Positions 20,787 through 33,758 of a stretch of DNA of 34,092 nt are shown here, piece after piece (position 1 is the stretch's first letter; every line of letters begins with the position of its first letter). The position numbers were made by a program, and so were the translations under genes. A model generated the notes under the pieces. The model saw only the letters and a list, made by a program, of their open reading frames with translations. It was not told where the DNA came from and searched no databases. Source of the DNA: an uncultured Saccharophagus sp. (GTDB lineage Bacteria > Pseudomonadota > Gammaproteobacteria > Pseudomonadales > Cellvibrionaceae); assembly GCA_937920545.1 (NCBI GenBank), contig CAKZUG010000075.1:1-34092 (forward strand). Direction: 5' to 3'.

Positions 20787-22484
20787 ATGATAAAAACAAC
20801 CCTATCTATCCTCATGTTATTCACCTACACGGTGTTAAGCTTTCCCGCTTACAGCATGACAAAACAAGATTTTTTTGATAAAAGATCGGCTCTGATTATT
20901 AAGCATGGGCATCACGACACAACATTTAAAGCTCTATTAAATGAGAAAAAAGCGCAAACAAAATTTACTAGCGAATATTGGCGCTGGCGTGTAGATCAGT
21001 ATTTGTATGGTCAGTATGTCGAGTTTCAGCCTATCTATGATGCATATATAAAAGGTAAAAAATTTAACGAGATATATGATTTACCCGCTGAAAATTTAGG
21101 GCCAAAATGGCAAGCACTTAAAAATTTACCTGAGTTACCCAGTGGTTATTTCACAGGTAATTTACCTGGTAACGCATACACAGGCTGGCATAAATTAATT
21201 GGTGATACGCTGTATGTGACATACCAAGGCCATTTAACTGATCCTTATGTCGCAGGCTATAACCTCACATCTAAAGACTGGTCTGGCCCGTTCAAGGCAG
21301 GTCACAGTACGCTATCAAAAGGCGATAGAAAGATAGATAGCCACGGCCGACCAATTATAGAAGTGGATAATCAGGGGTATGTGCATATTGTGTTTGGTGG
21401 TCATGGCGGCGAGCGCGAAGACGGTTTAAACCCGCTATCTATTGATACGCCCCATGCTGGCGGCAGAATGAAGCATGTTGTATCAAATAAGCCTTATGAT
21501 CTGAGCGCGTTTACAGAAAAAAACGACATCACACCGTTTGCGTCTTATACCAAAAGCTACAAAATGGCTAACGGCGATATTTATTTTTTCACCCGTGCGG
21601 GCACGCATAAATCGCCTTGGCTGTATTATAAAATGGCATCGGGGTCACAAACGTTTGAGCCGCCTGTTATTATCTCGTGGCCAACGCCCGATAAAAATGA
21701 CCCTATTTTAGTGGATACCCATTATATTAATCCTGTTAAAGTTTCTGATACCGACATTGTTATTACATCGTTATGGCATCAATGTAACTTTAACGAAACG
21801 CACGATAAAACCCACTATAACCGCTTAAATGCTTACTATATGCGCTTAGATACCACCGACGATACTTTTTACAATGTTAATAATAAAAAACTGACATTAC
21901 CGTTAACCTTTGCATCTAAAAACATAGATACGCTCGCATACGATTCACAAAAAGCTGGCGAGACGAGCTTTGGTACAAAACCGTTAGTGTTAAAAAGTGG
22001 TATACCTGCGCTGGCGTATGAAGCGCGAGGAGAGGGTTATCGCGAGTGGCGTATGGCTAAATATGAAAAAAACCGTTGGAGTCATGGGCATCCTATGCCG
22101 GGCACAGCAAATCGAATAGTATTAAGCGAAGCCGGTCAGCCCATTAAAAAAGTGATTGCGCTTGAGGTTTTACAAAAAACAGGCGCGCTAGGGGAAAAGC
22201 CCGAAGCGCTAAAAGCCGCTGTCACCTATCAAAATACGGCAGGCGAAAGCTTATTTGGTATAGCTAAATCGGTGAGCTACTCGGATAAAAAACAAACATG
22301 GAAAATAGAGCAAGTTTACTTTAATGTGGCGCAATCGCAATCGCAATCGCGATTACGTATGGAGTCTGTAAAAGATAATCACGAGAATACCGTTGCAATG
22401 ATTGTGAATGTTAAAAAGGGCGCAGCGCAGCGCCTATATCTTTGGCACGATGGCGAGCTAAGAGAAAATAAAGCAGTTAAATAA
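20787..22484 (+). CDS. Secreted BNR-type beta-propeller protein, possible polysaccharide lyase
   Basis: 565 residues with a Sec signal peptide (about 1-23). A helical N-terminal part (about 25-120) precedes a beta-propeller region with BNR_4-like features: KIDSHGRPIIEVDNQGYVHIVFGGH (about 184-208), a HVV-x3-PYDLS segment and a THKSPWLYY strand. These recall the seven-bladed propeller enzymes related to PL24/PL25 ulvan lyases, which use His and Tyr. Identity as a lyase is inference. It could be a non-catalytic carbohydrate-binding or unrelated glycan enzyme. A short (GCAATC)x3 repeat at 22331-22348 encodes QSQSQS. No polysaccharide-utilisation cluster surrounds it. Confidence 0.6.
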   Translation: MIKTTLSILMLFTYTVLSFPAYSMTKQDFFDKRSALIIKHGHHDTTFKALLNEKKAQTKFTSEYWRWRVDQYLYGQYVEFQPIYDAYIKGKKFNEIYDLPAENLGPKWQALKNLPELPSGYFTGNLPGNAYTGWHKLIGDTLYVTYQGHLTDPYVAGYNLTSKDWSGPFKAGHSTLSKGDRKIDSHGRPIIEVDNQGYVHIVFGGHGGEREDGLNPLSIDTPHAGGRMKHVVSNKPYDLSAFTEKNDITPFASYTKSYKMANGDIYFFTRAGTHKSPWLYYKMASGSQTFEPPVIISWPTPDKNDPILVDTHYINPVKVSDTDIVITSLWHQCNFNETHDKTHYNRLNAYYMRLDTTDDTFYNVNNKKLTLPLTFASKNIDTLAYDSQKAGETSFGTKPLVLKSGIPALAYEARGEGYREWRMAKYEKNRWSHGHPMPGTANRIVLSEAGQPIKKVIALEVLQKTGALGEKPEALKAAVTYQNTAGESLFGIAKSVSYSDKKQTWKIEQVYFNVAQSQSQSRLRMESVKDNHENTVAMIVNVKKGAAQRLYLWHDGELRENKAVK

Positions 22485-22602: not shown

Positions 22603-23367
22603 CTACATACGTATAACCGAAGCGATTAACGATAAGCCAACCAAAATAGTGGTCACCTCAAAAACACGTTTAATTAATATGTTCCCTTTTTTAAGGGATA
22701 TCACCGCACCGATATAGCCACCTAATAATGACCCTGCTAGCAAAACGGGCAGCCAATCCCATTGCACCTCAGCTAAAAACGCAAAGGTAATTGCGCCTGT
22801 GCCATTCCAAAATAAACCCACGCATATCATTGTATGGGCGGTAGCTTGTTTGTAGTCGCAGCCAAACCATGCAACCAACCAAAGCGTGACAAATAAACCG
22901 GTGCCCGAGCTGAGCGCACCGTTTAAAAAACCTATTAAAAAAAGAATGCCTGCGCCTATCACTGCATGTTGTATGTTTTGTTTTTTCTCTACTTGAACTC
23001 ACCCTAGCTGCGCTTTAAAAATAGAGTAAATACCCAGTGATAATGTGAGTACACCTAAAATAACTTTAGCGGTAGATTCGGGTATTAATAATATTGTTTT
23101 AGCCCCAATGATAACGCCGGGCAAACCAAAGGCCAGCAGTAATACGATGAGCTTAGCGTTAAAAATAGACGCCCTCGCATGTTTGATGCTAGCACCCACG
23201 CCTAATGCCACACTCGCTATTTTATGTGTGGCCAGCGCGACAGATAAAGGCAGCCCCATAAAAACCAATGCAGGCAGTTGTATTAACCCTGCACCACCAC
23301 CTGCCATGGCCGATAAAATATTTGAAGTAAGTGATATAAAAAATAAAAGTAAATGTTCAATTATCAT
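22603..23367 (-). pseudogene. TauE/SafE family sulfite exporter-like gene with in-frame TGA
   Basis: A 255-codon frame runs without frameshift from ATG 23367 to 22603, but codon 123 (22999-23001) is TGA. The upstream half (22999-23367, 122 residues) begins MIIEHLLLFF and carries the first TauE repeat (GGGAGLIQLPALVFMG). The downstream half (22603-22998; an internal GTG at 22962 gives 119 residues) carries the second repeat (NGALSSGTGLFVTLWL). Intact TauE/SafE proteins of about 250 residues with two such repeats export sulfite/organosulfonates or unrelated anions. The ATG overlaps the upstream glycosyltransferase stop by four bases (ATGA), so it is translationally coupled. Causes could be a nonsense mutation, a sequencing error, read-through or a genuine split into two halves. 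Confidence 0.75.
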
Positions 23368-24656
23368 AAATTAGCTGGCTTTTTGTAAGGTGCGTTGCGT
23401 AAACAGAAGGCTAAGGGTTTTTGTGGATAAGCATGCTCTGTCATATATCGAATAAATTTTAATGTTAAAAAGCCATCAAACCATGTGGTAAATTGCGTGA
23501 TAAATTGTGCTTGTGTGCAGTTTTGCTTGATGCAATGCGTTAACAGTTTTTGAATGTTGAGCGCGGTTAATGCATCGATAATAAAAGCGCAGTAAGGCGA
23601 TTGTTCAAATGTATGGTTAAGCGATACTTGCAGCTGATTGTTTTTTTGATAAAAGCATAATAATAAATGTATAAAAGTTAGCGTATCTTTTAGTACATAA
23701 AAACAATCTGGCGCATAATAGGTATAGTTAAGTGTTTCAATGTTTTTTATATCTTGATTGTGATTTAAATCTTGATTGTGATTTAGATATTCATTGGCAT
23801 TAATAATATTTTGCGCAGCGGGCCCTGTGCCAAATGGCACCCGGTTTGAGGCGCGGGCTTTTAATAGCAGTGTGTTATCAAGGGCTTGAATATTTCCCAC
23901 TTTGGCGAGTTTATTCAGCAGGTAAAAATCTTCACCCGCTGGCCGTTTAGGGAAACCGCGTACAGCGCAATAGCTTAACGCATTCACTGCAAGCGTGCTG
24001 CCCAGCGTATGAAATGCATAAGGCGATCCTGCCCACGCTAAACCTTCTTTGTAGTATTTAATGGCGCATTCATAATAATGTGTCGCTATGCTAATAGCGC
24101 TGTTATCTTTTGTGTGCGTGTAGTTAAACACCCACGCACTGATTTTTGCATCATAAAAAGTGTGGCTAAAATACGTGCTGGGCAAAGTAGCGTCGGCATC
24201 GGTCGAAAAAATAATCGGCGTGCTAATATATTTTTTGTTAATAAGGCTAACAGCAATGTCGGCTCCTATTTTTCGGGCTAGGCCAACGCCTTGCTTAACC
24301 GGTAAGGCTGTATTTTTTTGAGCGTGCTCAGCTAATATAAACGCACTTTTTTTGTAAGTAATATAGCTCATGTTTTGATGTTGCCAGAGCACCTGCCCGT
24401 TTTGCTTTAGGTGTGTAATAAGTGCAATGTTAAGTTTATTTTGAGAAAACGGCTGTGTAGCGGGTTGGTTAACCACTAAAATCACAAGCGCGTTATGAGC
24501 GTCGTGATGCTGTGTCAAACGATCGATAAATTCGATTGTCTCGTCGTAGCACGGAATCACACAAACATATTTTTTCAAAAACACAGGTAAGGTATGTATG
24601 AGGTGCGTGCTGGGTTCGCTGTATTTTGTAATATACGCGTCTAGCGCCTTACTCAT
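23364..24656 (-). CDS. Family 2-type (GT-A) glycosyltransferase
   Basis: 430-residue predicted glycosyltransferase. The N-terminal VCVIPCYDE motif (about residues 31-39) is the GT-A nucleotide-sugar entry, and a STDADATLP segment (about 170-178) carries the DxD metal-binding motif. A GGEDFY-like acceptor motif appears as PAGEDFYLL (about 240-248). It has no obvious membrane anchor. Acceptor and sugar are unknown. An LNHNQD hexapeptide is duplicated in tandem (23751-23786). AAGGAT precedes the ATG closely. It overlaps the downstream TauE-type gene by four bases, so the two form a two-gene transcript. Confidence 0.78.
   Translation of the reverse strand: MSKALDAYITKYSEPSTHLIHTLPVFLKKYVCVIPCYDETIEFIDRLTQHHDAHNALVILVVNQPATQPFSQNKLNIALITHLKQNGQVLWQHQNMSYITYKKSAFILAEHAQKNTALPVKQGVGLARKIGADIAVSLINKKYISTPIIFSTDADATLPSTYFSHTFYDAKISAWVFNYTHTKDNSAISIATHYYECAIKYYKEGLAWAGSPYAFHTLGSTLAVNALSYCAVRGFPKRPAGEDFYLLNKLAKVGNIQALDNTLLLKARASNRVPFGTGPAAQNIINANEYLNHNQDLNHNQDIKNIETLNYTYYAPDCFYVLKDTLTFIHLLLCFYQKNNQLQVSLNHTFEQSPYCAFIIDALTALNIQKLLTHCIKQNCTQAQFITQFTTWFDGFLTLKFIRYMTEHAYPQKPLAFCLRNAPYKKPANL
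23751..23786 (-). repeat. Two 18-bp tandem repeats inside the glycosyltransferase gene
   Basis: ATCTTGATTGTGATTTAA (23751-23768) is followed by a copy differing only in its last base (23769-23786). It encodes LNHNQD twice and keeps the frame. It looks like a recent in-frame duplication. Confidence 0.85.
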
Positions 24657-24672
24657 ACGGTATCCTTAATGG

Positions 24673-24726
24673 TTGTGTAAATGACAGTGGGTATATAAAT
24701 GACAGTTAATATGTAAATGGCGTGTT
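24673..24726. repeat. Three 18-bp direct repeats upstream of the glycosyltransferase gene
   Basis: AAATGACAGT starts at 24679 and 24697, and a third, degenerate AAATGG starts at 24715, all with an 18-bp period. The array sits just upstream of the glycosyltransferase start and could be an iterated protein-binding site. No factor is assignable. Confidence 0.5.
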
Positions 24727-24796
24727 CAAAACAGAAAGTTAGTTAACATGTTGTAAATAATTAAAGTGTTTAAATGAATATTGAAAATGGCGCGTT

Positions 24797-24839
24797 CACT
24801 CATGCCCACTAATTTTATCGTGTTTGGTGGGCATGAGTG
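24797..24839. terminator. 13-bp inverted repeat downstream of the MiaE-like gene
   Basis: CACTCATGCCCAC (24797-24809) pairs perfectly with 24827-24839 across a 17-base loop. On the minus strand the following sequence is only mildly T-rich (CGCCATTTTC), so terminator function is plausible but not typical. Confidence 0.5.
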
Positions 24840-24850
24840 CATGAATCTTT

Positions 24851-25423
24851 TTAATGCAGGGTAGATTGAATAGGCAGGGTTTTGACAATATCTGCTTCAA
24901 TATCAAGTAATATATCTAAGCGCTCATCAATAGTGGCTTTATCAAAGTAATGACTAGCCAATTCAATAAATAACTCGCTGTGTTTTTCTTCGGACGCTGT
25001 TATCGCAGCGTAAAAATCCTTTAATTCGCCTGCGGGTAGAGCCTGTGCAATCAAACCAAAGCGCTCGCAACCACGGCTTTCTATAATCCCCGCAATTAAT
25101 AATCGGTCTAAAAAATAGACATCGGTGCCGCGCCTATGGTGTTTACGGAGTGCATTAACGTAGGCATCTTTTGTATCGGCTTCTAACGTGAGGCCGCGCT
25201 TGGTAACCAACTTCACTACTTCTCTAAAGTGCATCATTTCTTCAATGCATAGGTCTGTCATGGCTTCGACAATAATGGGTTTGTCGGGGTAGTGAGATAA
25301 CATCGACATCGCCATACCCGATGCTTTCTTTTCGGCAGCCGCGTGGTCAATTAAAAAAGTATCGAGATCATTTAACACGCATTGTGTCCAAGCGTTGGGT
25401 GTTTTAAAACGTAATTCAAACAT
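24851..25423 (-). CDS. miaE: tRNA-(ms2io6A)-hydroxylase, MiaE-like
   Basis: Non-haem diiron monooxygenase that hydroxylates the ms2i6A37 isopentenyl group of tRNA. Candidate iron ligands include Glu in AEKKASGMA, an ExxH motif in EEMMHF, and a second ExxH in SEEKHSEL. These fit a ferritin-like four-helix fold. The frame opens at an ATG at 25498, but the upstream 25 residues are unconserved. MFELRFKTPNAW from the ATG at 25423 is the typical start, and GGAT precedes it. Length is 190 residues. It is divergent from fabV. Confidence 0.88.
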   Translation of the reverse strand: MFELRFKTPNAWTQCVLNDLDTFLIDHAAAEKKASGMAMSMLSHYPDKPIIVEAMTDLCIEEMMHFREVVKLVTKRGLTLEADTKDAYVNALRKHHRRGTDVYFLDRLLIAGIIESRGCERFGLIAQALPAGELKDFYAAITASEEKHSELFIELASHYFDKATIDERLDILLDIEADIVKTLPIQSTLH

Positions 25424-25528
25424 GGTGTGGTATCCAATAAAGGCGTTATTATCAGGCTTTGCCCTTTGATGCCGTGAATTTTCACCGGCAAGACACATAA
25501 AGGGGACTGCAATAAAGATATATTCGGT

Positions 25529-25546
25529 TATAATGCGCCCATTATA
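25529..25546. promoter_or_regulatory. Palindromic overlapping -10 elements between miaE and fabV
   Basis: TATAATG-CGCC-CATTATA is an 18-bp palindrome. TATAAT reads perfectly on both strands (25529-25534 on plus, 25541-25546 on minus). If both are -10 elements, two face-to-face promoters overlap and compete. Neither has a strong -35, so an operator is an alternative reading. Confidence 0.4.
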
Positions 25547-25602
25547 CCACCTGTTTTTTTTAAACGGCTACGTCGATAGCCTGTTAACCCTAGGGAAACC
25601 CC

Positions 25603-26793
25603 ATGATTATTGATAAACCTAAAGTTCGCGGTTTTATTTGTACTAATTCTCAGCCAGAAGGTTGTGCCGCCAATGTTCAAGAGCAAATCGATTTTGTAAA
25701 GGCGCAGGGTGCCATAGATGGCGGCCCCAAAAATGTACTTGTTATCGGTGCTTCTACTGGTTACGGTTTAGCTTCGCGTATTACTGCGGCCTTTGGTTGT
25801 CAGGCAAAAACATTGGGTGTGTTTTTTGAAAAGCCAGGTAATGCACGTAAGCCTGGTTCAGCAGGTTTTTACAACTCGGCGGGTTTTCATGCCAAAGCCG
25901 ATGCGGCAGGTTTGTATGCTAAAAGCATTAATGGTGATGCCTTTAGTGACGAGATCAAGCAAACCACGATCGACACAATTAAAGAAGACTTAGGTAAAGT
26001 CGATTTAGTGATTTACAGCCTTGCATCTCCTCGTCGTAAAGACCCCAAAACAGGTGAGCTGCATTCGTCGGTACTAAAGCCTATTGGCGAATCGTATACC
26101 GCAAAAAACCTGAATACCGATACGCTGAAAATTGCCGATATGACGATCGAGTCGGCTTCTGAAGACGAAATAGCCAACACCGTTAAAGTCATGGGTGGCG
26201 AAGATTGGGAGTTGTGGATAGAGGCACTTGCTAACGCTGGCGTATTGGCCGACAACGTTAAAACCGTTGCTTATACCTATATTGGCGACAAGTTGACTTG
26301 GCCAATTTATGGTAAAGCCACTATTGGTCGCGCCAAAGAAGATTTAGACCGTGCTGCTACAGCCATTAACGCACAGCTTAAAGGTGTAAACGGTCAAGCG
26401 AATGTCGCTGTACTAAAAGCGCTTGTCACGCAATCTAGCTCAGCTATTCCTATTATGCCGTTGTATATTTCTATTTTGTACAAAGTGATGAAAGAAGAAG
26501 GCAGTCACGAAGGGTGCATCGAGCAGTTATACCGCCTGTTTACAGAAGGTTTATATACATCAACGCCGCGTTTAGATGACACAAACCGCTTTAGAATGGA
26601 CAACCTTGAGTTGTCTCAAGCAGTACAAGATAAAGTAGAGGCCATTTGGCCAACCGTAACAGAAGAAAACCTTTTTGATGTCACCGACTACAAAAGCTAT
26701 AACCAAGAGTTTTTGAAACTGTTTGGTTTTGGTATTGATCGTGTTGATTACACCAATGAAGTTGAAACAGAAGTTGATTTTAACCTGATATAA
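25603..26793 (+). CDS. fabV: trans-2-enoyl-ACP reductase FabV
   Basis: NADH-dependent enoyl reductase of the short-chain dehydrogenase superfamily that performs the last step of each fatty-acid elongation cycle. It replaces or supplements FabI and is less sensitive to triclosan. 396 residues (usual about 400). Features: opening IDKPKVRGFICTNSQPEG, a cofactor motif VIGASTGYGL (about residues 47-56), and the FabV active-site pattern Y-x8-K in PIYGKATIGRAK. The C-terminal FGFGIDRVDY is a family signature. AGGG precedes the ATG by eight bases. An lpxL-type gene follows 9 bp later. Confidence 0.96.
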   Translation: MIIDKPKVRGFICTNSQPEGCAANVQEQIDFVKAQGAIDGGPKNVLVIGASTGYGLASRITAAFGCQAKTLGVFFEKPGNARKPGSAGFYNSAGFHAKADAAGLYAKSINGDAFSDEIKQTTIDTIKEDLGKVDLVIYSLASPRRKDPKTGELHSSVLKPIGESYTAKNLNTDTLKIADMTIESASEDEIANTVKVMGGEDWELWIEALANAGVLADNVKTVAYTYIGDKLTWPIYGKATIGRAKEDLDRAATAINAQLKGVNGQANVAVLKALVTQSSSAIPIMPLYISILYKVMKEEGSHEGCIEQLYRLFTEGLYTSTPRLDDTNRFRMDNLELSQAVQDKVEAIWPTVTEENLFDVTDYKSYNQEFLKLFGFGIDRVDYTNEVETEVDFNLI

Positions 26794-26802
26794 CGGCACG
26801 TT

Positions 26803-27729
26803 ATGCGCACAAAAGCAGGCTACAAAATACCGCTACATCCTAAAACATGGCCTACTTGGTTGGGTTTTGGCGTGTGGTGGCTAGTCACTTGGATGCTACC
26901 CCGTAAAACACTTTTATGGATGGGCATATATTTGGGGCGGTTTGCCATGCGAGTAAGCAAGCGCCGCACCCATATTGCCCGCACCAATATTGATGCGTGT
27001 TTCCCCGAAAAAACACAAGCCGAACGCGATACTATTTTACGCGAGTCAATGGAGTCGATTGGTAAAGGGTTTTTTGAGTTTGGTTTGGCTTGGTTTGGCC
27101 CTATTAGTAAGTTAAATCATGGCTATACCATTGAAGGCTTAGAGTATATCGAACAAGCCCACGCCGATGGTGAAGGTGTGCTCTTAATAGGGTTTCATTT
27201 TTTAACCCTAGAGATTGGCGCGGCGTTTTTAAGTTTAAATATATCGGTAGATGGTTTTTATCAGCCGCACAAAAACCCCGTGTATGAGTTTGTGATGAAA
27301 GTCGGTCGAGAGCGCCATAACAAGCAAGCCGTGAGTTTTCAAAAAAGCGACTTGCGCGGCGTAATTCGCTGTCTAAGAAAAGGGCGTTCGGTACTGTATT
27401 TAAATGATCAAGATCTTGGCCCTAAGCGCTCGGAATTTGTCCCGTTTTTTGGCATACAAACCGCCACGGTATTGGGTACTAGCCAGTTATTACGTGCAGG
27501 TAAGGCGCGGGCCTTATTTCATATTACGGGCCGCAACGATGACGGCACTTATTATATTAAATTTGTACCACCGTCCCAGCCATTAGGCCAAGGCGATGAT
27601 TTAGAAGACGCGCGGATGATTAACGCCTTTGCTGAAAACGCTATTCGGCAACAGCCGGGGCAATACTTGTGGGCGCATAGACGCTTTAAAACACGCCCAG
27701 AAGGTGAGCCACCCTTTTATAAATTGTAG
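26803..27729 (+). CDS. lpxL: Lipid A biosynthesis acyltransferase (LpxL/HtrB family)
   Basis: Inner-membrane acyltransferase that adds a secondary acyl chain (lauroyl or similar) from acyl-ACP to Kdo-lipid A. 308 residues, as usual. Visible features are an N-terminal hydrophobic helix (about residues 16-35), the catalytic HX4E (H132-x4-E137 in GFHFLTLE), and an RRRTHIARTNIDACFPEK-like segment (here KRRTHIARTN) after the helix. A later NDQDLGPKRSEFVPFFG motif is also typical. It follows fabV by 9 bp, so fatty-acid synthesis and lipid A acylation are probably co-transcribed. Confidence 0.92.
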   Translation: MRTKAGYKIPLHPKTWPTWLGFGVWWLVTWMLPRKTLLWMGIYLGRFAMRVSKRRTHIARTNIDACFPEKTQAERDTILRESMESIGKGFFEFGLAWFGPISKLNHGYTIEGLEYIEQAHADGEGVLLIGFHFLTLEIGAAFLSLNISVDGFYQPHKNPVYEFVMKVGRERHNKQAVSFQKSDLRGVIRCLRKGRSVLYLNDQDLGPKRSEFVPFFGIQTATVLGTSQLLRAGKARALFHITGRNDDGTYYIKFVPPSQPLGQGDDLEDARMINAFAENAIRQQPGQYLWAHRRFKTRPEGEPPFYKL

Positions 27730-27747
27730 GGTCGGCTCAGTGTTTAT

Positions 27748-27762
27748 GGTACATTATGTACC
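27748..27762. promoter_or_regulatory. 15-bp palindrome upstream of dapA
   Basis: GGTACAT-T-ATGTACC is a perfect 7+1+7 palindrome, about 57 bp before the dapA ATG and 18 bp after the lpxL stop. It is a candidate operator overlapping the dapA promoter region. The bound factor is unknown. Confidence 0.45.
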
Positions 27763-27818
27763 CATATCTTTTCAGGTTTAAAAACCACTATTAATTTGTG
27801 TTATTTTGGAGACGTTAC

Positions 27819-28694
27819 ATGTTCCACGGTAGTATGGTTGCACTTGTTACCCCTATGCAGCCCAATGGCGATGTTGATTGGCAGGCATTGCACAATCTTG
27901 TGCAATGGCATCTTGAGCAAGGCACACATGCAATTGTTGCCGTTGGCACCACGGGTGAAAGCGCAACATTAAATGTGAACGAGCATATACAAGTAATTAA
28001 GTCGGTGGTAGAGCAAGTAGCGGGTCGTATTCCTGTGATTGCTGGCACAGGTGCTAATTCTACAAGTGAGGCCATCGAGTTAACGCAAGCCGCCGCTACA
28101 GCTAAAGTTGATGGCTGTTTATTGGTGACGCCTTATTATAATAAGCCCACACAAGAAGGCTTGTTTTTACATCATCAAGCGATTGCCAAAGCAGTGGCTA
28201 TTCCTCAACTTTTATATAATGTGCCTGGCCGTACAGCGGTAGATATGCTGCCTGAAACAGCGGCTAAATTATCGTATGTGGATAACATTGTAGGCATCAA
28301 AGAGGCGACAGGTGATATTTCACGTGTTAAATCTATATTAGATAACGCTAAAGACGGCTTTTTACTTATTTCTGGTGATGATGAAACCGCCGTTGATTTT
28401 ATTCATCAAGGTGGTGTAGGGGAAATTTCCGTTACAGCGAATGTTGCCCCTAAACTTGTTGCCACCATGTGTGAACTTGCTGCAAAAGGTGAGATCGAAC
28501 AAGCGCATGCGATCAATAACCAGCTTATGCCTTTGCATGACGCCATGTTTGTTGAATCTAGCCCTATTCCCGTTAAATGGGCCCTCAACAAAATGCAGCG
28601 TATTCAAGACGGTATACGTTTGCCTTTAACAGCATTAAGCGAACAGCACCATGCCACAGTAGAGCAGGCGCTTAAACTGGCAAATGCACTGTAA
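27819..28694 (+). CDS. dapA: 4-hydroxy-tetrahydrodipicolinate synthase
   Basis: First committed enzyme of the lysine/diaminopimelate branch, condensing pyruvate with aspartate semialdehyde. 291 residues (E. coli 292). Schiff-base Lys161 is in GIKEATGD, the catalytic Tyr is in LLYNVPGRT (about residues 131-139), and GTTGE (about 43-47) is intact. The frame opens at a GTG at 27798, but GGAG 8 bases before the ATG at 27819 and the conserved FHGSMVALVTP start choose the latter. dapA precedes bamC, a conserved order in gammaproteobacteria. Confidence 0.97.
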   Translation: MFHGSMVALVTPMQPNGDVDWQALHNLVQWHLEQGTHAIVAVGTTGESATLNVNEHIQVIKSVVEQVAGRIPVIAGTGANSTSEAIELTQAAATAKVDGCLLVTPYYNKPTQEGLFLHHQAIAKAVAIPQLLYNVPGRTAVDMLPETAAKLSYVDNIVGIKEATGDISRVKSILDNAKDGFLLISGDDETAVDFIHQGGVGEISVTANVAPKLVATMCELAAKGEIEQAHAINNQLMPLHDAMFVESSPIPVKWALNKMQRIQDGIRLPLTALSEQHHATVEQALKLANAL

Positions 28695-28727
28695 GTTTTT
28701 GACCAAACCAATAAGAATGATTCACTT

Positions 28728-29912
28728 ATGATCTTTAAACGTACTTCATTAATTTTTGTTTTATCGGCTGTTCCGTTCTTTACTGCTTGCAGTTTCATTG
28801 GCGGTGATAAAGGCATGTTTCGCGACCGCTCAAAAGATTATTTGGGCTCAGGGTCACTTAAACCGATTGTCATCCCGCCGGCATTAAAAAGTAAACCGCT
28901 TAATACTGCGTTTGTTATCCCGCATGTCAGCGCAAAAGACGAGTTTGGTGATGCGGTAAAAATTAGTGAATATGTTGTCCCACGGCCAGAAGCCATTGCC
29001 GAAGATGAAGCCGAACTGGGTGTGAAAATACAATCTTTAGGGGGCGATCGATGGATCTTTTTGAATGTGCCTACATCACAAGTATGGCCGCAAACGCAAA
29101 GCTTTTTATCTGAAAATAATGTATCACCTGTTAAATCGTACGCATTAGAAGGTGTGATAGAGACTAATTGGGTGACGTTTAAAGATGACGCCAGCACAAA
29201 AAGCCGTTATCGCCTGCATATCCAAAAAGGGATTCACCCCGACACAACTGAAATCCACGTAACACAAGCACAGTTTGCCTCAGACAGTTTACCTGCTTTT
29301 GGTCCAAGTTTTGACTGGCCTGAAAGATCACATGATACCGAGCGTGAAAAATGGTTAACCGATGAGTTAGCCGCTGTTTTGGCTTTAGGTGTGAGCAACA
29401 GTGCCGCGTCATTAATGGGGCAAGCTGTAGGTGGGAGCGTTAAGGCTAACTTAGGTCGCTACAAAGGTGAGCCTGTTTTACGCCTAGATTTACCCGCTGT
29501 ACGCGCTAATGCATCGCTGTTGCATGCTATTAAAGCCGATCAATTTGTCATGTATGATGCCATTCAAAACGAAGGTGTTTTTTACTTTGGCTACCCGTAT
29601 ACACCAAAAAAGACAGGTTTTTTTAGTCGATTAGCGTTTTGGCGTGGCTATAAAGGCGCTAAACCGACTAGCCCGTTTAGTATTGGCGATGTCTTGTCAC
29701 AATTAAGTGATAAACCTGAAGTAAAAGAGACATTCTCTGGTGTGTCGTCTGCCGCTTTTATCGCTTCACCTAAAAATATTAATGGCTACCTTGTGATTGT
29801 TCACCCTGTAGGCGATGGTTTTGTCGCCAAAATAAGAACCGCTCAAGGTGAAACGTTAGAGGATGCGCACGCTAAAGGTATTTTACGCTTGCTACGCACA
29901 CGTTTAATTTAG
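28728..29912 (+). CDS. bamC: Outer-membrane protein assembly factor BamC
   Basis: Lipoprotein subunit of the BAM complex that inserts beta-barrel proteins into the outer membrane. Lipobox FTAC, so Cys21 would be lipidated. 394 residues, somewhat longer than E. coli BamC (344). It has an unstructured N-terminal region (about 22-90), then helix-grip-type domains with DRWIFLNVPTSQVWPQ (about 105-120), and ends HAKGILRLLRTRLI. Position after dapA supports the call. Ribosome site is weak (AAGAAT). Whether the extra length reflects a third domain is uncertain. Confidence 0.88.
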   Translation: MIFKRTSLIFVLSAVPFFTACSFIGGDKGMFRDRSKDYLGSGSLKPIVIPPALKSKPLNTAFVIPHVSAKDEFGDAVKISEYVVPRPEAIAEDEAELGVKIQSLGGDRWIFLNVPTSQVWPQTQSFLSENNVSPVKSYALEGVIETNWVTFKDDASTKSRYRLHIQKGIHPDTTEIHVTQAQFASDSLPAFGPSFDWPERSHDTEREKWLTDELAAVLALGVSNSAASLMGQAVGGSVKANLGRYKGEPVLRLDLPAVRANASLLHAIKADQFVMYDAIQNEGVFYFGYPYTPKKTGFFSRLAFWRGYKGAKPTSPFSIGDVLSQLSDKPEVKETFSGVSSAAFIASPKNINGYLVIVHPVGDGFVAKIRTAQGETLEDAHAKGILRLLRTRLI

Positions 29913-30024
29913 CGTATACATGCGGTTAGTTGCATTGCCTTTTATATAATGATGTAACGTAAGCTGCATGTTTTTGCGGTTTACGTGTATTTTTTGATTT
30001 ATCACATCTTTTTAATTCATTTTT

Positions 30025-30801
30025 ATGACAACTCCTGTTTTTCAATTTGCCTCTCTAGGCAGCGGTAGCGACGGCAATACCACGGTGATTCAAGCTGGCG
30101 ATAGCTACTTTTTGCTGGATTGCGGTTTTTCTATGCGTGAAACTATCAAGCGCTTAGCACGCTTAGATATCGACATTACGCAAATTACTGCCATTCTGGT
30201 GACACATGAGCACGGCGATCATATTAAAGGTATGCCTGCACTTAACCGTAAATACCGTATTCCTGTCTATATGACGCGCGGCACGCGTTTAGCTAAATCG
30301 TACGGTGAATTGCCCGTCATTGAAATCATCGAAGATTTCAATGCCTTTACATTGGGTGGTTGTCGTATTACACCTGTTGCCGTGCCCCACGACGCGAAAG
30401 AACCCGCACAATTTACGTTTGAGTTTGGTGGCTTACGGTTAGGTATATTGACGGATATTGGTTTTATCACGCCGCATGTTGTCGATGGGTTTGATTGTTG
30501 TGATGCGTTGCTAGTAGAGGCAAATCATGATTTGGCCTTGCTTTCTATGGGGCCTTATCCGCAATCGCTTAAAACCCGCGTATCGGGTAATTGGGGGCAC
30601 CTTAACAACCTTCAAACCGCTGATTTTTTACAGCAAATTAACCTCAATAAACTAAAAACCTTGGTCATTGGTCATATTAGCCAAAAAAATAACTGTATAA
30701 AAAAAGTGTCTGAGGTGCTTGAGCCCCACTTGCCTGCGCGTTTATTTGAATCGATTAAATATGCCTGCCAAGATGAAGGTTTTGGTTGGATATCGCTCTG
30801 A
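30025..30801 (+). CDS. MBL-fold metal-dependent hydrolase (YycJ/VicX-like)
   Basis: 258-residue metallo-beta-lactamase-fold enzyme. The metal-binding motif is HEHGDH (H61, H63, D65, H66) and it opens with FASLGSGSDGNTT, which is characteristic of the YycJ-type subfamily (predicted exonuclease/hydrolase). A further conserved GHISQKNN-like loop is at the C-terminus. The substrate is unknown. The ATG lacks an obvious ribosome site, but the conserved start fits. It follows bamC, the order found in other gammaproteobacteria. The last codons are duplicated after the stop (30772-30828). Confidence 0.88.
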   Translation: MTTPVFQFASLGSGSDGNTTVIQAGDSYFLLDCGFSMRETIKRLARLDIDITQITAILVTHEHGDHIKGMPALNRKYRIPVYMTRGTRLAKSYGELPVIEIIEDFNAFTLGGCRITPVAVPHDAKEPAQFTFEFGGLRLGILTDIGFITPHVVDGFDCCDALLVEANHDLALLSMGPYPQSLKTRVSGNWGHLNNLQTADFLQQINLNKLKTLVIGHISQKNNCIKKVSEVLEPHLPARLFESIKYACQDEGFGWISL

Positions 30802-30828
30802 TGAAGGTTTTGGGTTAGATATTATTCT
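30772..30828 (+). repeat. Tandem duplication spanning the MBL gene stop codon
   Basis: The segment at 30772-30799 (starting GATGAAGGTTTTGG) recurs imperfectly at 30800-30828 with one extra base. The stop TGA is formed at the junction of the copies. The second copy lies beyond the gene and is not translated. Confidence 0.8.
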
Positions 30829-30877
30829 AAACCTCCTCTATTGGTTCTTGTTTTTTGAATGTGTCGAATTTAATCAC

Positions 30878-30891
30878 GTGTAAATTTACAC
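30878..30891. promoter_or_regulatory. 14-bp palindrome upstream of the PilZ gene
   Basis: GTGTAAATTTACAC is a perfect palindrome about 48 bp before the start codon at 30939. It resembles generic TGTAAA-TTTACA operators, but I cannot assign a regulator. TATACT sequences at 30900-30905 and 30913-30918 could be -10 elements, without clear -35 partners. Confidence 0.45.
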
Positions 30892-30938
30892 CTTTAGTTT
30901 ATACTCATTGAATATACTGTAAATTTAGGAGAGTTAAA

Positions 30939-31211
30939 GTGGAAGAACGCCGTCGTTCGAGGCGAACGCAGACTAGCATTCGTGTCGAGATCAGCCACCC
31001 ATCATTTGGTTTAATTATTGGTTCCACAAGCGATTTATCTGAAGGTGGCGCGCAAGTCACTCTTGAAAACAGTCGTGTTTTACCCCCTTCGGGTACTGTG
31101 GTTGATGTTCAGTTTAAAAAATTAATTGGCAATATTAACGAGAAGCCAGTCCCTATGCGTGTAATGCATACTGTTAAATCAACTATCGGTTTAATGTTTG
31201 TTACCACTTGA
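30939..31211 (+). CDS. PilZ-domain protein, probable c-di-GMP receptor
   Basis: 90-residue single-domain PilZ protein. The two c-di-GMP-binding motifs are visible: an Arg-rich RRRSRR at residues 4-9, matching RxxxR, and DLSEGGAQ (about 32-39), matching (D/N)xSxxG. Such proteins bind cyclic di-GMP and regulate motility, biofilm or exopolysaccharide by protein contact. The partner is not deducible from the context. The start is GTG at 30939, with an AGGAGAG ribosome site six bases upstream. It is a single gene between two promoter-rich gaps. Confidence 0.86.
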   Translation: MEERRRSRRTQTSIRVEISHPSFGLIIGSTSDLSEGGAQVTLENSRVLPPSGTVVDVQFKKLIGNINEKPVPMRVMHTVKSTIGLMFVTT

Positions 31212-31487
31212 TTTGTGTATCCGCATGCATAATATGTAAAGCGTGCGTCATTTCCGCTTGTTTTTACTTTCGCCATCATTCAGCTTGCTATTAACTAGTA
31301 AACATAATGCCAGCCGTGCAGCTAAATACTGATAGAAATGCATGCATTACTTTTTTAAATTGCGGTAGTGTTCATGCTATATAAACAAAATCGGCGTAAA
31401 ATCTTTATACGTATTTCAAATATATGAATAGCAGCATGTATCGCTATACATTTTAAGCAAAATAATTTGGTTAGAAGAGAGAATAAA

Positions 31488-32159
31488 ATGTTTAATAAAA
31501 CAAAGCGCGTATCTAAAATTGCATCATTAGCAGGTTTGCTGGCCTTAACAACGGCGTGTGCCACTTACGACCCTTACACAGGCGATAAAAAAGCGGGCAA
31601 TTCAGCGGTTGGTGCTGGTATTGGCGCATTGGCAGGTGCCGTGATTGGCGCAGCTACAGCGGGTGGCGATAAAAATAAATCAATCTTAACCGGTGCAGCA
31701 GCAGGTGCAGCATTAGGTGGTGGTATTGGTTTGTATATGGATAAACAAGAAGCCAAACTTCGCCAGCAGCTTCAAGGTTCAGGCGTACAAGTACGCCGTG
31801 AAGGCAACGAATTATTTTTAATCATGCCGGGCAATATTACGTTTGCAACAGGTCAATACTCAATTAAATCGCAGTTTTATGATGTGCTTACTTCCGTTTC
31901 TGTTGTCTTAAAAGAATACAATAAAACGGTCATTCAAGTGTCGGGCCACACTGATAACGTAGGTAACTCGCAGTTTAATCAAACGCTTAGTGAGCAGCGC
32001 GCCGCTAGCGTAAAAACGTATTTAGTGCAAAAAGGCATTGTGCCAGGCCGCGTACAATCAGTTGGCTACGGTTTTCGTTACCCTGTTGCGCCTAATGCAA
32101 CAGCTCAAGGCCGCGAGCAAAACCGTCGTGTAGAACTTAAGCTAGAAGTGATTGAGTAA
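31488..32159 (+). CDS. OmpA-domain lipoprotein with glycine zipper (YiaD-like)
   Basis: 223-residue outer-membrane lipoprotein: lipobox TTAC places the lipidated Cys at residue 24. Residues about 38-82 are Gly/Ala-rich, a glycine-zipper segment that may span or associate with the membrane. The C-terminal OmpA domain (about 105-220) binds peptidoglycan and has GHTDNVGNSQFNQTLSEQRA and the REQNRRVELKL end. The frame opens at a TTG at 31467, but AGAGAGAA before the ATG at 31488 gives the proper signal peptide. A terminator follows. It is divergent in role from the similar lipoprotein at 33144. Confidence 0.9.
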   Translation: MFNKTKRVSKIASLAGLLALTTACATYDPYTGDKKAGNSAVGAGIGALAGAVIGAATAGGDKNKSILTGAAAGAALGGGIGLYMDKQEAKLRQQLQGSGVQVRREGNELFLIMPGNITFATGQYSIKSQFYDVLTSVSVVLKEYNKTVIQVSGHTDNVGNSQFNQTLSEQRAASVKTYLVQKGIVPGRVQSVGYGFRYPVAPNATAQGREQNRRVELKLEVIE

Positions 32160-32204
32160 ACACCTTAATTTTATACAGTAGCACCTTGCTACTTAGATGT
32201 TATT

Positions 32205-32229
32205 AAAGCCACTTTATGTGGCTTTTTTT
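32205..32229 (+). terminator. Rho-independent terminator after the OmpA lipoprotein
   Basis: AAAGCCAC (32205-32212) pairs with GTGGCTTT (32218-32225), followed by T to 32229. It ends the lipoprotein transcript and lies 11 bp before the rsmJ ATG, which argues against a start at the ATG at 32216 inside the stem. Confidence 0.85.
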
Positions 32230-32239
32230 ATGGAATGTT

Positions 32240-33031
32240 ATGTTGTCAGATACGTTAATTATAAAATCGACTATTTCTGCTTGGGAGCAAGCCAGTGCGT
32301 TTGCCGCTGTACATAAGTTAAGCATTGTTGATATTGATAAAAAAACGGCACATGATTTTACGTTAGTGTTTGATTTTACGCGTGTTTACTTGCTCGATTG
32401 TAGACAAAAGAAGCCAGTTGAAATCTGTGTCGATTTTAATTCTGGTGCGGCGGAGCATCGACGAAAATACGGTGGCGGTGCAGGGCAATCAATTGCAAAA
32501 GCCTGTGGTATAAAAGGCGGCAGAAAACTTCATATACTGGATGCCACAGCAGGCTTGGGGGGCGATAGCTTTGTGATGGCAAGTTTAGGTTGCACGCTCA
32601 CGTTATTAGAGCGCTCACCTATTGCGTTTAGCTTGTTAAATAATGCTTTAGAGCGCGCAAGTGAAAGCGAAAATGTTGAGTTGCTCGATATTACCTCACG
32701 TATGACATTACACAATGTAAGTGCGCTTGATGCTTTGCATAACATAGGCGTGTATTCAGATGATGCGTTCGATGTTATTTACTTAGACCCCATGTTTCCT
32801 GAAAAGAATAAGAAAGCATTGGCTAAAAAAGAAATGCAAATCTTTCAGCAAATAGTGGGTGCCGATAACGATGCTGATAACTTGCTGGAACCTGCACTAG
32901 AAGCAGCCACATACCGTGTGGTGGTTAAACGTTCCAAAACCGCTCCGTATTTAAATGGTGTAGAGCCAACGCTTGAGCTCAAGGGCAAATCTTCACGCTT
33001 TGATATTTATACTAAAAAAAAGCTACCTTAA
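32240..33031 (+). CDS. rsmJ: 16S rRNA (guanine(1516)-N(2))-methyltransferase RsmJ
   Basis: S-adenosylmethionine-dependent methyltransferase modifying G1516 in helix 45 of 16S rRNA. 263 residues (E. coli about 250). SAM-binding motif DATAGLGGD (about residues 98-106), acidic loop LLERSP (about 122-127), catalytic-type YLDPMFPEKNKKALAKKEM (about 178-196), and the C-terminal RFDIY. The frame opens at the ATG at 32216, inside a terminator stem. The ATG at 32240 with GGAA upstream is preferred. It is transcribed separately from its neighbours. Confidence 0.94.
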   Translation: MLSDTLIIKSTISAWEQASAFAAVHKLSIVDIDKKTAHDFTLVFDFTRVYLLDCRQKKPVEICVDFNSGAAEHRRKYGGGAGQSIAKACGIKGGRKLHILDATAGLGGDSFVMASLGCTLTLLERSPIAFSLLNNALERASESENVELLDITSRMTLHNVSALDALHNIGVYSDDAFDVIYLDPMFPEKNKKALAKKEMQIFQQIVGADNDADNLLEPALEAATYRVVVKRSKTAPYLNGVEPTLELKGKSSRFDIYTKKKLP

Positions 33032-33061
33032 AAAAGCTACCTGAAGAACATTACCTCAAAA

Positions 33062-33091
33062 CTAAAAAAGAGCCAAAGGGCTCTTTTTTAG
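33062..33091. terminator. Bidirectional terminator between rsmJ and the OmpA lipoprotein
   Basis: CTAAAAAAGAGCC pairs with GGCTCTTTTTTAG around a short loop (33062-33074 with 33079-33091). The A run and T run make it functional for rsmJ on plus and the convergent lipoprotein gene on minus. Confidence 0.88.
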
Positions 33092-33143
33092 TTTCGTTTT
33101 AATGGGTGCCATACAGCTAAAAATAACAGCAAATTAATAGCCA

Positions 33144-33758
33144 TTAATAAATAACAGCAAATTCACGTTTTGTGCCATCTAACTCGATGCGTACACGTCT
33201 GTTTTCCTCACGGCCCATTTCGGTTTCATTAGTGGCAACAGGTCTGCGTTCGCCATAAGCGTCAATGTCAAAATCGGCTTCGGTAAAGCCGCTCATAACC
33301 AGGTAATCTCTTACCGATTGTGCTCTTTCTTTCGATAATGCACGGTTATACTCATTTGTACCAATGGCATCTGTATGGCCTGATAGCGTCAGTTCCAGTT
33401 CGCTACTCTTATCTGGTAGTGTGTTAAGCATATTGTCTATTTGCTGTTTTGATTCGCTTGTTAGCTCGGATGAATCAAAATTAAAATTGATGACCAATGT
33501 TTTTTCAATCGATTCTGTTACAGCGATTATTTCAGGTGCGGCTTCAGGTACAGATTGAGGCGCCGATTCAGGCTCAATACTTGGCTCTTTATCTACCTTA
33601 ACAGACATCATTGCGGGCCTCGCCGCAGTTGTATTCACTTTATTTGAATCTGATTTCATTGACAATAGTTCATAATTATCATTAGAGCTACAACCTGCTG
33701 TGGCAATCAGTGCAGTAGAAATGGCGGTTGTTAAAATAACTTTTTTTGTAAGCTTCAT
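33144..33758 (-). CDS. OmpA-family lipoprotein
   Basis: 204-residue lipoprotein: signal peptide with lipobox ATAGC, Cys at residue 23. Residues about 35-85 are low-complexity (rich in Glu, Pro, Ala, Ser). The C-terminal OmpA-type peptidoglycan-binding domain (about 88-200) contains FDSSELTSESKQQID, SGHTDAIGTNEYNRALSKERA and a REENRRVRIEL end. It is close in domain type to the lipoprotein at 31488 but lacks the glycine zipper. The ribosome site is a strong GGAGGA. It is a stand-alone gene between a bidirectional terminator and an AT-rich region. Confidence 0.9.
   Translation of the reverse strand: MKLTKKVILTTAISTALIATAGCSSNDNYELLSMKSDSNKVNTTAARPAMMSVKVDKEPSIEPESAPQSVPEAAPEIIAVTESIEKTLVINFNFDSSELTSESKQQIDNMLNTLPDKSSELELTLSGHTDAIGTNEYNRALSKERAQSVRDYLVMSGFTEADFDIDAYGERRPVATNETEMGREENRRVRIELDGTKREFAVIY

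Follow-up and report, generated by a model that had tools for sequence, protein, structure and literature searches.

The window, the entire 34,092-nucleotide stretch of DNA analyzed here (contig 75 in a 2.97-Mb draft genome made up of 154 contigs, with a completeness of 84.3%), encodes on the minus strand (23367-22603) a TauE/SafE family gene (PF01925) that is interrupted by an in-frame TGA between the two TauE repeats. We tentatively favor the view that this gene was broken by a real, recent in-frame nonsense change; next in likelihood comes a fission of the gene into two separately translated parts, then an error in the assembly, with only a small share left for recoding of the TGA. The features relevant to this question, all on the minus strand, are as follows.

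23364..24656, minus strand: 430-aa product of the gene next upstream, resembling glycosyltransferases by a sub-threshold match only; the pair is found in 15/27 relatives
22999..23367, minus strand: upstream TauE half, 122 aa, running from an ATG to the TGA; first TauE repeat (open reading frame list and Pfam PF01925, profile 1-112)
22999..23001, minus strand: in-frame TGA, codon 123; in the 26 aligned relatives this column holds 22 Gln, 2 Val, 1 Lys and 1 His
22963..22998, minus strand: 12-codon stretch from the TGA to the GTG; inter-repeat linker, most deviant by unseen-residue count, 56% A
22603..22962, minus strand: downstream half, 119 aa from the GTG, TAG end; second TauE repeat (open reading frame list and Pfam PF01925, profile 131-237)

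The 254 codons of the gene lie in one frame that is open from 23367 to 22603 apart from 22999-23001, in agreement with the first-pass annotation, which had described a TauE/SafE-type gene split by one TGA and had left the strand unstated. Its further claims, that each half carries one of the two repeats and that the same frame reads as normal protein on both sides of the TGA, hold as well: the halves match the Pfam profile separately (upstream half alone, E 3.3e-18, 66.7 bits; downstream half alone, E 3.1e-18, 66.8 bits), and the alignment with relatives is free of gaps within 60 columns on either side of the TGA. When the gene is read through the TGA, a single match spanning profile positions 1-237 is obtained (E 4.4e-41, 141.6 bits); each half and the read-through protein exceed the PF01925 cut-off of 32.6 bits. 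As it stands, the gene does not encode a single uninterrupted chain with both TauE repeats, given the TGA at codon 123. By its sequence, the product is a putative anion exporter of the TSUP (TauE/SafE) family, whose cargo would be sulfite, sulfoacetate or a related anion. A sequence search for a relative of the TauE protein with a solved structure gave no convincing one, and in a structure predicted from a two-row alignment (mean pLDDT 43, too poor for use), a coil at residues 122-131 separates helices 97-121 and 132-148, which would agree, only weakly, with the inter-repeat position of the stop.

Intact relatives and selective constraint

Close orthologs of the gene (E below 1e-40) are present in 28 of the 144 genomes of the family, whereas a TauE match at E 0.001 or better is found in 115; among 293 sampled genomes of the order, 32 have a close match, the window's genome being counted in the 28 as well as in the 32. 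This narrow distribution of the close ortholog indicates that the gene is dispensable. Three more TauE-family genes, all without internal stops, are encoded in the same genome. In plasmid records, there are 93 matches, every one below 60% identity, so that no closer copy is found there.

The window gene was aligned with 26 of its 27 close relatives, and all 26 have a sense codon in the column of the TGA. Given the lack of nearby gaps, the TGA looks like an in-place substitution rather than the product of a shifted frame, and a frameshift or indel as its cause is not supported. Getting from the relatives' Gln codons to a TGA would take a minimum of two base changes. The first-pass annotation had held that a sense codon at this position in relatives would make this an intact gene; the sense codons are there, but even the nearest relative is only 67% identical, so that they testify to a whole ancestral gene and not to a whole copy in the window.

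The 27th relative (genome G140), which was left out of the alignment, has its gene interrupted by a scaffold gap filled with N: at positions 1488-1489 of its locus (L032), the TauE gene is cut at an NN scaffold join with repeated flanks, an artefact that resembles a split gene, and it was accordingly rejected as a second natural split. The TAA codons within the TauE matches of genomes G003 and G059 were likewise rejected as internal stops, being normal gene ends. No internal stop was found in the other 31 close matches of the order sample (three of which are also in the family sample), nor any other internal stop or one-repeat-only TauE among the best-scoring matches listed for a 60-genome sample of the phylum. 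Thus, save for the scaffold-gap case, there is no other split TauE among the matches listed for the family, order and phylum samples, and our literature search found no report of a split TauE protein, an absence that is limited to that search.

The only other genome of the genus among the 144 (G123; a single contig of 5,057,531 bases) has a whole TauE gene, the nearest ortholog within the TSUP/TauE-SafE family (PF01925; TCDB 2.A.102). This ortholog likewise contains both repeats, its halves being 66% and 79% identical to those of the window gene, and has the upstream neighbour and the surrounding gene order in common with the window. Compared with this family, the window gene is distinguished by the TGA that interrupts its frame between the repeats and by its diverged linker.

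Divergence from the G123 ortholog at the three codon positions is 0.34/0.16/0.67 for the upstream half (121 residues) and 0.23/0.10/0.58 for the downstream half (100 residues, the first 13 omitted). The third-position ratios, 2.7 and 3.5, respectively, indicate that both halves have been under selective constraint, which might have ended recently; ten other genes give ratios of 1.4-4.3, one of these (33144-33758) being probably a paralogous match. Changes unique to one lineage (outgroup G131) number 19 in the window against 8 in G123 for the upstream half and 10 against 5 for the downstream half. Neighbouring genes show a similar imbalance (e.g., 31:15, 47:26 and 45:31), which suggests that the whole lineage evolves faster and that the TauE gene is not special in this respect. 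In a tree of 27 sequences, the window branch is the longest (0.727; sister 0.181), and its ratio of scaled branch lengths in the second and first halves, 1.20, ranks an unremarkable eleventh of 27. With the codon-position bias kept and neighbour-like rates in both halves, the decay is not old, and a long-dead pseudogene was rejected. Across the genes of 22603-33758, the window lineage has more unique amino acid changes than G123 in every outgroup comparison except one (30025-30801, outgroup G131, 21:25).

The linker and translation past the stop

The 12-codon linker that follows the TGA matches the relatives at 0.077, compared to 0.256-0.410 for the same stretch in the 26 relatives. Six of its 12 residues are unseen in these relatives, compared to 16 of 117 for the remaining variable columns (uncorrected one-sided Fisher p 0.006), and by this count it is the most deviant 12-column stretch of the protein. 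Among the replaced residues is a Gly that is invariant in 26/26 relatives; with this Gly counted, the downstream half departs from the relatives at 4 of its 51 near-invariant positions and the upstream half at 1 of 47, the runner-up for the downstream half being an intact relative with 3 of 49. The A content of the linker is 0.56, outside the range of 0.08-0.50 in the relatives. However, a loop around residues 65-76 deviates to a similar degree by another measure, without any stop, and the linker of an intact relative (L013) is unusual as well (p 0.0098). Given these two cases, linker decay is not specific, and we do not treat it as decisive; the linker pattern fits release by fission but does not prove it.

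The ATG of the TauE gene overlaps the TGA stop of the 430-aa upstream gene by 4 bases, the usual arrangement for translational coupling, and the two genes are presumably carried on one mRNA. The GTG noticed in the first-pass annotation as a potential restart is indeed present, in frame, at 22962-22960, 12 codons (36 nt) past the TGA, but it lacks a Shine-Dalgarno sequence and its pairing energy (+2.2 kcal/mol) is the weakest among the 24 starts scored; three other mechanically called open reading frame starts score +1.7 to +1.9 kcal/mol. One study reports that, in E. coli and Haloferax, coupling was almost lost even at a distance of about 20 nt (PMC10666635), whereas a review describes conflicting results on the role of distance (PMC12548453). 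The 30 bases 5' of the GTG are A-rich and predicted to be largely unpaired, a context that could perhaps permit a weak independent start. When the two repeats are aligned with each other, the GTG lines up with the native ATG to within about one residue in two alignments, both of them weak (E 0.67 and 0.06).

Explanations for the interrupted gene

Under the favored scenario of a recent nonsense change, an anion exporter gene of the TSUP (TauE/SafE) family, inherited vertically and second in an apparent two-gene operon, would have acquired a real TGA, present in the DNA of the cell, in the loop that joins the two repeats. Translation would then stop after the first repeat, and the second repeat would at best be weakly made from the GTG 36 nt further on, in which case the cell would probably have little or none of this transporter; the three unbroken paralogs could cushion this loss. 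The sense codon in 26/26 gap-free relatives, the constraint on both halves, the use of TGA as a normal stop along with the presence of RF2, the unbroken paralogs, the dispensability of the ortholog, and the position of the GTG, far from the stop and without a Shine-Dalgarno sequence, all speak for this scenario. It is less comfortable with the location of the stop, given that, by an estimate from loop length, random nonsense would hit the inter-repeat loop in about 1 of 13 to 20 cases, with the need for at least two base changes from Gln, and with the diverged linker, for which a very recent change offers no explanation. Ordinary bacterial nonsense pseudogenes show a single in-frame stop in an otherwise intact gene, with paralogs elsewhere in the genome; the window gene resembles them in all these traits and differs in the inter-repeat position of the stop and the diverged linker.

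These same two departures are what a natural fission would account for, whereby the repeats are made separately from one mRNA, the second from the GTG at 22962, and join as a two-piece transporter, a possibility that we consider doubtful but ahead of the remaining ones. The stop sits between the repeats, both of which have kept their constraint, the most deviant stretch of the protein, rich in A and devoid of its invariant Gly, lies between the TGA and the GTG, and the GTG is close to the native register. These features must be set against the poor initiation context of the GTG, with a 36-nt distance that is far for coupling (reports on distance being mixed), the comparable deviation of the 65-76 loop and of the intact L013 linker, and the larger number of near-invariant changes in the downstream half. 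Nor is there another split TauE among the matches listed, apart from the scaffold-gap case, and a survey of more than 300 TSUP proteins from sulfate reducers found them to be 240 to 790 residues long, which implies no half-size proteins in that set (PMC5840216). A precedent of sorts is split-Doa10 of Kluyveromyces, likewise a multi-helix membrane protein encoded as two fragments; these fragments are reported to be expressed and assembled and the split to be genus-wide (PMC3464245), whereas for the window gene, expression of two fragments and a shared split are hypothetical. Slightly more doubtful is the specific proposal that a TSUP protein has undergone fission into its two ancestral repeats, inserted separately, and has been caught early, with the halves kept and the linker lost. 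An internal duplication is the presumed origin of the TSUP family. If both halves are made, the gene would be a natural reversal of that event and a simple test bed for the origin and assembly of repeat-built membrane proteins; if the TGA arose by simple nonsense mutation or is erroneous, this is an ordinary broken gene, relevant for annotation only.

An assembly or sequencing error, with the true TauE gene being whole, appears rather doubtful, and somewhat less likely than fission. The fragmented, incomplete state of the draft, the whole genes in 26/26 aligned relatives and the constraint on both halves are compatible with it; the two or more changes that separate the TGA from the relatives' Gln codons and the unusual surrounding linker, which a point error would leave untouched, are not readily so. 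A crude, codon-usage based scan for broken genes covered 332,446 bases of this genome (20 stretches and the window) and was sensitive only to in-frame stops flanked on either side by 60 codons or more. Among the 84 same-frame pairs of open frames tested, six appear to be coding on both sides; five of these look like ordinary neighbouring genes (two in the window, three judged from their translations), and the sixth is the TauE gene. No second gene broken by an in-frame stop was recognised in these 332 kb, suggesting that the assembly is not full of such stop errors, although a scan of this kind cannot clear a single site. Reading through or recoding of the TGA (by selenocysteine, a suppressor tRNA or an altered code), yielding a full-length protein, is highly improbable despite the open frame and protein-like sequence on both sides of the stop. 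None of the eight tRNA-Sec matches in the genome reaches the gathering score, all of them being ordinary tRNAs, and no SelB was found above the cut-off, absences that are not final in a genome that is 84% complete; RF2 is present, and the linker is not conserved. TGA terminates 9 of 126 long open frames, so that a global reassignment was rejected. Of the four possibilities among which the first-pass annotation had not chosen, three stay in contention (fresh nonsense mutation, assembly error, two-piece transporter), and read-through or recoding has become unlikely.

Neighbouring genes

The TauE gene is adjoined on its other side by a gene on the plus strand (20787-22484) for a 565-aa BNR-repeat protein (PF15892), for which the short flanking sequences of the relatives' loci contain no match. 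For the 430-aa product of the gene at 23364-24656 on the minus strand, the only Pfam match, to mannosyl-3-phosphoglycerate synthase, is below threshold (E 0.0026). This gene is located directly upstream of TauE in 15 of the 27 relatives' loci, with partial hits in three more (1.5-kb flank); the glycosyltransferase-like gene and the TauE gene form a conserved pair.
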